This document shows, one piece after another, positions 12,842-16,140 of a stretch of DNA of 36,361 nt. Numbering within the stretch: the first letter of the stretch is position 1; the number at the start of each line of letters is the position of its first letter. The stretch lies in assembly GCA_947631295.1 (NCBI GenBank), contig CANRKU010000011.1, forward strand, positions 1 through 36,361, read 5' to 3'. The notes below the pieces were generated by a model. The model searched no databases. It saw only the letters and a program-made list of their open reading frames with translations, and was not told where the DNA came from. Made by a program: the position numbers and the translations under genes. The DNA is from an uncultured Bacilli bacterium (lineage in GTDB: Bacteria; Bacillota_I; Bacilli_A; RF39; UBA660).

Positions 12842-14230
12842 TTATTTACCTAAGTAAGTAATTTTGGCATATCCATTTCCCGCATTTCCTATGATAGTAT
12901 TTTTTCCATCATAGGAAGGCATACCGATATTGCCCTGCTTAGAAGTTGTCCATTGATACCCTTCTCCATCTATCATTACTGTATCTGTAAAGAAAAGTCC
13001 AGAATAATGAATACTTTGGTTAGAATGCTGAATATTATTTTCTGTAGATGTTTCTAAAATAGCATTACATCCATTATGACCGGAAATAAAGGATGAACCA
13101 CTTGCTCCTATACCAACTGTTCCAGTTCCATGAGGTCCAGAGCCACCACCATAATACCCTGAACCACCAGAACTAACGGAGCCCATTGCTTGTCCACCAC
13201 GTCCAAAAGATCCTGAAGTAGCATTTGTACTATTAAGGCCTCCTCCTTTTAATCCACCACTTGTTTGTGTTCCACCTGTAGGAACTATACCATCTGTACC
13301 ATACAATTTTCCATCATACCCCGTTAGTCCTCCACCAGCAACTCCATTATCTGGATGATAATAATTACTAGCTCCGCTTCCACCAGCTGCTACCATAATA
13401 CGACTTTTTAAACCATCAAATGAACTATTTACTAATCGCATATCTGTAGCACCGCCACCAGGCATTCCAAATATATTATTTTCTGCTGCTGTTTTATCAG
13501 CCCATAAATTAGAAACACAACCATTATTAAATGTTGCATTTCCACTTTGATTACCCTGTTCTCCTACATAAATATATAAAGTTTGATTCTTTGCTAAATT
13601 AATATTTCCTTTTGTATAGGAACCCAATCCTCCTTTATAGGAATCAATACTTCCTCCTTGAGCACCCCATAATTCTACTTTATAATTTCCACTACAAAGT
13701 GTAGTGAATTGCTGTTCTTTCCCTACGTAATCAAAAGCATAGATATGTTCCATTTCGCAATATGCAATTAACGCTTTTTCTGTACCTGTTAATACTAAAG
13801 CATTATGAATAAATCCTCTTTCTAATCCAAATGTAATAATTTTATCCATATCAGAATTATTTTCAATCATTATTTCAACAGTAATTTTGCTATCCTTTTC
13901 TAATGTTCCTTTACTAGATGGATTTTCTAAATAACTCACAACTACATTATTACTATCTTCTATTTTATAATATAATTCATATTTAAAATCGATATCATTT
14001 AAATTTTTAATCGTGATAGGAAAAATTTTTGTTTGTTTTGCTCCTACTGTAACTTGATTATTTATTAACTCACTACTTTCTAATTGATAATCTAGAGTTC
14101 CCGCTACTATATTTAACTTTCCATGCTCTTCCTTTAAGTTAGTAAAAAAGGCATAAGAAAAATATATGGTTGATACCATAATAATACTTAATAATAATAT
14201 TCCAAAATATATCTTTTTCCCTTTACTCAT
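12842..14230 (-). CDS. Secreted glycine-rich surface protein with TasA-like N-terminus
   Basis: This exported protein of 462 residues starts with a membrane or signal helix (about 7-27) followed by YAFFTN and IVAGTLDY, the style of SipW-type signal proteins related to TasA/camelysin. Residues about 30-150 look like a beta-sandwich. From about 155 on it matches the glycine-rich domain known from bacterial surface proteins and the ALK/LTK receptor ectodomain: ELWGAQGG, GGLGSYTKG, LYIYVGEQGN, GGGATDMR, MVAAGGSG, YYGGGSG and SGSSFISGHNGC. It has no sorting motif of its own. A good ribosome site (AAAGGAG) precedes ATG 14230. The only nearby upstream DNA is the inverted-repeat segment 14250-14406, so its promoter must lie in or beyond it. 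Adhesion or matrix function is an inference. Confidence 0.75.
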   Translation of the reverse strand: MSKGKKIYFGILLLSIIMVSTIYFSYAFFTNLKEEHGKLNIVAGTLDYQLESSELINNQVTVGAKQTKIFPITIKNLNDIDFKYELYYKIEDSNNVVVSYLENPSSKGTLEKDSKITVEIMIENNSDMDKIITFGLERGFIHNALVLTGTEKALIAYCEMEHIYAFDYVGKEQQFTTLCSGNYKVELWGAQGGSIDSYKGGLGSYTKGNINLAKNQTLYIYVGEQGNQSGNATFNNGCVSNLWADKTAAENNIFGMPGGGATDMRLVNSSFDGLKSRIMVAAGGSGASNYYHPDNGVAGGGLTGYDGKLYGTDGIVPTGGTQTSGGLKGGGLNSTNATSGSFGRGGQAMGSVSSGGSGYYGGGSGPHGTGTVGIGASGSSFISGHNGCNAILETSTENNIQHSNQSIHYSGLFFTDTVMIDGEGYQWTTSKQGNIGMPSYDGKNTIIGNAGNGYAKITYLGK

Positions 14231-14249
14231 ACTCTACTCCTTTGGTTTT

Positions 14250-14406
14250 TAAGTTAAATAATTAAAGCCATGAAAATATTGTTTTTATTCTTCATTTAAA
14301 AGGAAGATGATAGACAATATTTTTTGTTTTGAATTTTTTTCTTTTTAGAATATTCTTATTTTATATAGATAATATGCACTTGTTTAGTTTTTAATTATTT
14401 AACTTA
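14250..14406. repeat. 17-bp perfect inverted repeat bounding a 123-bp segment
   Basis: TAAGTTAAATAATTAAA (14250-14266) recurs as its exact reverse complement at 14390-14406; the match stops abruptly on both sides. Arm length, 123-bp interior and position 19 bp from a surface-protein start codon resemble invertible promoters of phase-variable genes. The interior carries a plus-strand TTGTTT-16-TAGAAT, pointing towards the sortase, and an AT-rich hairpin with a T-run on the plus strand. No recombinase gene is in the window. A long mRNA-leader stem is the main alternative. Confidence 0.5.
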
Positions 14407-14570: not shown

Positions 14571-15383
14571 ATGAAAAATAAAAATATCTATTTACATTTA
14601 ACCATGATTTTGTCTCTTAGTATTTTCGTATTTAGTTCTATGCATATTTTTTCATGGTTAGAAGAAAAAGAAAAAATAAAGCACTTAAATGAAAAATTAA
14701 AAGAACAAGCTGTTATTGAAGAAGACTTTTCTCAAGATGAATCTTTTTTAGTAAATCCACCGGTAGACAAAAATGATAGTTATTGGAACTATATAGAAGT
14801 TCCCTTTTTACAAGCAAATTTTTCTGAATTATACAATCAAAATCCTGATACCGTTGCTTGGATACAAGTAATGGGAACAAAAGTAGATTATCCTGTTGTT
14901 CAGGCAGAAAACAATAGTTTTTATTTAAACCACTCTTTTGATAAAACAGAAAGTAAAGCCGGTTGGATTTTTTCAGATTATCGAAATAATTTTAGCACTT
15001 TACATGATAATACTATTATTTATGGTCATGCTAGATTAGATGATACCATGTTTGGGAGTTTAAGATCCGTTTTAGAAGATTCTTGGTATCAAAATTCAGA
15101 AAATCATATTATTAAATTATCTACTCCTAAAATGAATTCTATCTGGCAAATTTTTAGTGTTTATACAATTTTAAAAGAAAGCTATTACATTAAGAATCAT
15201 TTTTATACGATAGAATCTTTTCAGAATTTCTTAGCTACAATTTCTAAAAGAAGTCGTTATTCTTTTCAAACTGCTGTTAATGAAAAAGATAAGATATTAA
15301 CTCTATCCACTTGTCAAGATAATTATGGAAATCGTATCGTCATCCATGCTAAGTTAATCAAAAAAGAAACTCTTTCTTTTTAG
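14571..15383 (+). CDS. Class B sortase
   Basis: This membrane-bound cysteine transpeptidase of 270 residues joins sorted proteins to the peptidoglycan. One N-terminal membrane helix (about 8-28) precedes a coiled, charged stretch and the catalytic domain. His153 (IIYGHARLDDTMFGSL), Cys248 (TLSTC) and Arg255 (GNRIVIHAKL) form the catalytic triad, and the D..MFG.L block is typical of class B. The start is ATG 14571 with GGTGATG just upstream; the longer frame beginning at TTG 14502 lies on the -35 hexamer and is rejected. It converges on a secreted protein with an NPSTG cell-wall signal (15394-16140), its likely substrate, and the two genes share a terminator hairpin. Confidence 0.92.
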   Translation: MKNKNIYLHLTMILSLSIFVFSSMHIFSWLEEKEKIKHLNEKLKEQAVIEEDFSQDESFLVNPPVDKNDSYWNYIEVPFLQANFSELYNQNPDTVAWIQVMGTKVDYPVVQAENNSFYLNHSFDKTESKAGWIFSDYRNNFSTLHDNTIIYGHARLDDTMFGSLRSVLEDSWYQNSENHIIKLSTPKMNSIWQIFSVYTILKESYYIKNHFYTIESFQNFLATISKRSRYSFQTAVNEKDKILTLSTCQDNYGNRIVIHAKLIKKETLSF

Positions 15384-15393: not shown

Positions 15394-16140
15394 CTAATTT
15401 TGTTTTATTGATTGACGTAATGTACTAATAAAGATAATAAATCCTAGAATACTCAAACCCATATATAAAGAAACAGAATCTCCTGTTGATGGATTTTCTT
15501 CATCAAGATCAATTAATTCAACAAGTTCAGCAAGTTCTAATTCTAAGCCTGATTTAATAGTAAAGATTTCACCATTCATTTCAATTGTTGCATCATCTGA
15601 ATCACTTGGTACCCAAAGAGTTGGTCTATCTGGATTATCCGTTGTATTAACAATTTTAATATCATCTGATAATTCTAATTTTACTTTTTCGGTTACATCT
15701 TTTCCTTGTGATAACTCAATTCCACCAAAGCCATTACCAGAAACATCGATTGTTCCTTCTAATTTAACATTAGAACCATTTACTAATAAAGCAGCATTTC
15801 CACCAGTTAATTTAATATCTCTAATTGTAGCAGTTGTTTTATACACTTGTAGTAAGTAGATACCATCCCAAACTGTTTTATCTTTTCCACCTTTAAAAGT
15901 ACCAACATATTTCATAGTATGATGATTACCATCGATAGTAACTGGTCTAGTAATTGTGATTTTTTCAGTTGTTTCGATATCACTTCCAAGTTTGATAATA
16001 CTAACATCATTATCTTCTAATGCTTCTTTTAATTCTGCCTGGTTATTAACTGTTTTAGTTGTTGCAGCATAAACTTGAGAAGCTGGAAGAACTATAGTTA
16101 CTAGTAATAAAGCGATAATCATTCCTAAAAATTTCTTCAT
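15394..16140 (-). CDS. Secreted beta-helix-like protein with NPSTG sorting signal
   Basis: The 248-residue precursor has a signal peptide (MKKFLG plus a hydrophobic core) probably cut after VYA near residue 25. Residues about 30-200 carry the opening AELKEALEDNDVSIIKLGSDI, then repeated short strands (ITITRPVTIDGNHHTM, IRDIKLTGGNAALLV, VKLEGTIDVSGNGFGGI), as in right-handed beta-helix pectate-lyase-like surface proteins. The C-terminus has NPSTG (216-220), a hydrophobic helix and a short basic tail RQSIKQN, a full sorting signal. The adjacent class B sortase is the natural partner. A Spo0A-type box lies 64-70 bp upstream of the start. Ligand or enzymatic activity cannot be told. Confidence 0.82.
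   Translation of the reverse strand: MKKFLGMIIALLLVTIVLPASQVYAATTKTVNNQAELKEALEDNDVSIIKLGSDIETTEKITITRPVTIDGNHHTMKYVGTFKGGKDKTVWDGIYLLQVYKTTATIRDIKLTGGNAALLVNGSNVKLEGTIDVSGNGFGGIELSQGKDVTEKVKLELSDDIKIVNTTDNPDRPTLWVPSDSDDATIEMNGEIFTIKSGLELELAELVELIDLDEENPSTGDSVSLYMGLSILGFIIFISTLRQSIKQN

Follow-up and report, generated by a model that had tools for sequence, protein, structure and literature searches.

The window analysed, 36,361 nucleotides from an uncultured Bacilli bacterium, carries at 14250-14406 a segment bounded by 17-bp perfect inverted repeats (TAAGTTAAATAATTAAA at 14250-14266 and TTTAATTATTTAACTTA at 14390-14406) with 123 bp between them, as an earlier note on this DNA had described. 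On the minus strand, a ribosome-binding site (AAAGGAGT, 14235..14242) and the gene of a secreted or membrane-anchored glycine-rich protein of 462 aa (12842..14230; Pfam ALK_LTK_GRD) follow the segment. On its other side, and outside the repeat, a predicted near-consensus minus-strand promoter (TTGACT-17-TACAAT, 14458-14430) reads through the segment into this gene. The segment itself is a short leader stretch with neither coding sequence nor a promoter above background. Two plus-strand elements already recognized in the earlier note were found inside it: a hairpin followed by a T-run (14273-14329), predicted to be a terminator in the plus direction (dG -5.2 as found and -12.5 inverted), and the motif TTGTTT-16-TAGAAT (14324-14351). 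The two arms are the sole perfect 17-bp inverted pair with a loop of 20-300 bp in the 36 kb window; such a pair appeared in 1 of 60 random windows generated under a first-order Markov model and in none of 2000 random 340-bp intergenic sequences, so a chance origin is unlikely.

The divergent neighbour is a class B sortase gene (14571..15383, plus strand, start at about 14571). The surface protein and the sortase therefore do flank the segment, with the sortase facing it, as the earlier note stated, but with an upstream region of its own it is not the likely target. Adjoining it at 15394-16140 is an LPxTG-type protein with a pectate-lyase-like adhesive domain, which makes it a likely sortase substrate.

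Copies of the segment in the same genome and in relatives

Further copies of the repeat, which the earlier note had suggested looking for, were located by a search of the window's own genome (G000). The module was present at twelve places, 11 of them intact (the window, C13:11060, C27:6327, C22:13824, C18:4109, C1:312, C3:2526, C29:160, C21:2136, C7:30156 and C7:26212) and one decayed (C15:21600), in which the gene-side arm and the gene have been lost. All intact copies show a constant order of promoter, arm, interior, arm, ribosome-binding site and start codon of a surface-type gene. The downstream genes fall into two families by their N-termini and vary in the outer parts of their products, which include glycine-rich sequences, DUF285 repeats and laminin-G-like and cadherin-like domains, several having no Pfam match.

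When all copies were read from promoter to gene, the interiors of the window, C13 and C27 proved directly alike (72-80% identity). The other eight matched these three only as the reverse complement (70-84%), with collinear flanks. C13 and C21 have 95% of the promoter flank in common but opposite interiors, and the C27 interior is that of C3 reversed (84% identical). Both orientations occur among paralogues, not within one same locus, and in this genome the orientation tracks the gene family, all the reversed copies belonging to one of the two. Contigs ending at an arm (G000:C28 and G013:C67) were considered as a sign of mixed orientation and were not counted, because repeats shared by paralogues also break assemblies. 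A different repeat, roughly 200 bp long and including TTCAATTATTTAATTTA (L035:156-172, L036:282-298 and L037:195-211), was noticed near the starts of contigs C3, C7 and C25 of this genome; in two of them at least, it comes after coding sequence of surface type.

Diverged copies were found in two genus mates (G010 and G013) and in one further rabbit MAG. Allowing three mismatches, the site pattern was matched in the 17 genus genomes 9 times in G000, 13 in G010, 7 in G013 and once each in G007 and G014, these being pattern matches of which a part was checked as complete elements; reversed-pattern controls gave 0 or 1. With two mismatches, among 193 genomes of the family (mostly one or two per genus, including one genus mate) only this genome was matched. 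A search of viral contigs for the site pattern gave no match. The exact hairpin pattern, searched across the genus, was also restricted to this genome, and its sequence thus lacks conservation between species. Of the named records in GTDB, those carrying the exact site are uncultured Bacilli MAGs labelled Lapin, presumably meaning rabbit.

In G010 and G013 the same site core also bounds stretches of about 440 bp that lie inverted, with a promoter on one side and the remainder of a surface gene on the other; they hold the ribosome-binding site, the start codon and the first 130-odd codons of that gene. Simulated inversion yielded a single open frame at all six loci (L159, L160, L161 and L162 in G010; L163 and L164 in G013), the longest of 796 aa and several ending at contig ends, a strong argument for recombination at these sites. 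Sites of the same family were also seen ahead of prepilin-like genes at L109 (G010:C32), L115 (G013:C22) and L154. In the inverted orientation L109 has a good interior promoter (TTGTCA-17-TAAAAT), and it may be a promoter switch.

Probable recombination sites and candidate recombinases

The arms are near-palindromes, each centred on a 7-bp spacer, which in the window is TTAAATA in both the promoter-side arm (14390-14406) and the gene-side arm (14250-14266). The spacer was identical between the two arms in all 23 elements from four genomes (2.7 are expected by shuffling), and 15 different spacers occurred among them, so that loci differ, some sharing one. Similarity had served to pick the arm partners at first, so a second check relied on the half-site motifs alone: 21 of the 23 elements had exactly one candidate partner, always with the same spacer, and the other two had none. 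Strand exchange by tyrosine recombinases requires and maintains matching spacers, and we infer that such exchange is the cause of the matching observed here.

With respect to the recombinase that the earlier note proposed looking for elsewhere in the genome, a XerD passing the equivalog cut-off, two integrases that appear to be borne by mobile elements and five serine recombinases (four large and one truncated at a contig end) are present; no small serine invertase was seen in this assembly. XerD (L048:1447-2361) is the only Xer recombinase of the assembly and adjoins an 856-codon surface-protein gene (L152:2415-4982, G000:C1). XerC was not found in it, though two Xer proteins occur in most genus mates. 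The best candidate for the flipping enzyme is a tyrosine recombinase, encoded at L148:1216-2187 and L149:1203-2174, that is 87% identical between G010 and G013 and adjoins uvsE in both. Judged by domain-hit length and score, no close counterpart was apparent in the rest of the genus. Neither this recombinase nor UvsE was found in the present assembly, which is 92% complete, and for UvsE true absence and missing sequence are indistinguishable.

Predicted promoter position and terminator orientation

The earlier note had interpreted the segment as an invertible promoter, found in the OFF orientation with no clear promoter for the surface gene, which inversion would supply. The promoter described above contradicts this, and its position and spacing are those of the paralogous copies. 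The best outside promoter ended 16-29 nt ahead of the first arm in 21 of 23 copies and exceeded the 95% level of shuffles in 18 of 23. Outside the arms the mean promoter score was 9.1 of a possible 10.5, compared with 7.4 for shuffles and 7.6 for the interior in either orientation. The copies do not conserve the interior motif TTGTTT-16-TAGAAT. Although a surface gene preceded by an inverted repeat with such a motif inside is what would be seen with a promoter that inversion points toward or away from the gene, and invertible promoters are common in Bacteroides, an interior at shuffle level both ways and a near-consensus promoter outside the repeat make an invertible promoter, of the fim or Bacteroides type, very unlikely here. 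What would flip is the hairpin.

Both orientations of the copies were scored for hairpins with a T-run behind them, the labels ON and OFF being taken from the site ends. In 18 of the 19 copies labelled OFF a predicted terminator lies in the path of the gene and is weakened or lost on inversion. The window, C13 and C27, the three labelled ON, have no terminator facing the gene as found, and inversion reverses this. By prediction, then, 21 of the 22 labelled copies behave as expected for a terminator acting in one orientation. C22 is the exception, with scores about equal both ways; G010:C23 was marginal and G010:C32 carried no label. The hairpins are AT-rich, which counts against reading them as terminators. 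In most copies of G010 and G013 the promoter-side arm and its flanks build the terminator, as in GGATTTAAGTAATGTACTTAAATCC-TTTTTT. The pattern that finds the copies of these two genomes detects mainly the OFF form, and ON/OFF ratios are therefore not derivable from them. Because terminators face the OFF genes and promoters lie outside the arms, an invertible terminator explains the pattern and an invertible promoter does not.

From the sequence, we consider that 14250-14406 is an invertible transcription terminator controlling the surface gene, with a probability of roughly 0.83. Directly visible in the sequence are the inverted repeat, the promoter outside it, copies in either orientation and spacers matched between arms, and the segment is very likely an invertible switch. 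The phase-variable control of a surface gene advanced in the earlier note is thus supported, with another mechanism and the opposite state: the terminator of the window faces away from the surface gene, and its present orientation is predicted to be ON. The fixed promoter would always fire; in one orientation the hairpin and T-run would halt the transcript ahead of the surface gene (OFF), and in the other the RNA would continue past the segment and the gene would be expressed (ON). Inversion of the segment between its two arms would be the work of a site-specific recombinase, probably one of the tyrosine family. The ten other surface genes of this genome that stand behind the same module would probably each be switched independently.

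About as unlikely as the invertible promoter is a static attenuator or RNA regulator whose two fixed orientations were inherited with the two gene families, with no present-day flipping. The leader hairpin with its T-run and the tracking of gene family by orientation within this genome fit such an element. However, Rfam gave no credible match, the first-family genes of G010 and G013 carry the other interior orientation, the arm spacers remain matched while the loci diverge, and the relatives invert gene starts with the same site core. The least likely alternative, a dispersed miniature transposable element with terminal inverted repeats placed in leaders by happenstance, would account for a length of about 160 bp, inverted ends and many copies in both orientations, but the segment always occupies one fixed slot between promoter and ribosome-binding site, its ends differ among copies yet match within each copy, where miniature inverted-repeat transposable elements have conserved ends and varied insertion sites, and the same core serves gene-start inversion in relatives.

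Relation to known phase-variable systems

To our knowledge, switching by a flipped terminator has been described for a single gene, cwpV of Clostridioides difficile. In that experimentally demonstrated switch, whose recombinase is RecV, the promoter lies outside imperfect 21-bp repeats, the 195-bp element contains neither promoter nor coding sequence, and an intrinsic terminator upstream of the surface protein gene exists in the OFF orientation only (Emerson et al. 2009; PMC2784873). The invertible terminator proposed here resembles cwpV in its predicted outside promoter, its short leader segment, a terminator in the gene's path one way and a surface gene as target. It differs in that eleven paralogous loci of about 160 bp each, instead of one, are found in a Bacilli MAG, an unrelated host lineage, with spacers matched within loci and differing between them. 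The place proposed for the cwpV terminator (PMC2784873) is close to that of the promoter-side-arm terminators in G010 and G013.

Seven invertible sites are known in C. difficile R20291, RecV being needed for some of them, and at least thirteen regions are attributed to the Mpi system of Bacteroides fragilis in work cited there (PMC5903667). The present genome shares with both the many dispersed switches and, probably, a common recombinase, but most R20291 sites have unrelated repeats, whereas here one site family has a variable spacer. The multi-locus system of B. fragilis flips promoters. Promoter inversion also controls the mpl (P35) lipoprotein genes of Mycoplasma penetrans, which offer a parallel in their small AT-rich genome and large surface gene family with one small invertible segment per gene; there the segment carries the promoter, and here the terminator. 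Intragenic invertons, in which coding segments are inverted within genes, are also known. The coding-segment flips of G010 and G013, which would join the gene start to the 3' part or cut it off and were not found in the window, are like them except that they use the site core of their own genomes' terminator switches.

We infer that the segments flip in living cells and that their hairpins terminate transcription, a cwpV-like invertible terminator having been multiplied across a surface gene family. At least ten more such switches are carried by the same genome, so random variation of the surface coat is probable in this uncultured gut bacterium. More tentatively, and at somewhat less than even odds, these switches may form a genome-wide switchboard, in which one recombinase acts on one palindromic site family with the spacer as the address of each locus, flipping terminators and, in relatives, gene starts for roughly a dozen surface genes in each genome, and giving many surface combinations without recombination between loci. 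The matched, locus-specific spacers suggest how a single enzyme could act on many sites and yet cause few rearrangements across loci. In uncultured gut Bacilli with small genomes, the flipped terminator seems to be the usual arrangement for a large family of surface proteins, and metagenome assemblies of such bacteria are predicted to understate their surface diversity, which gives a precise pattern to seek in reads.
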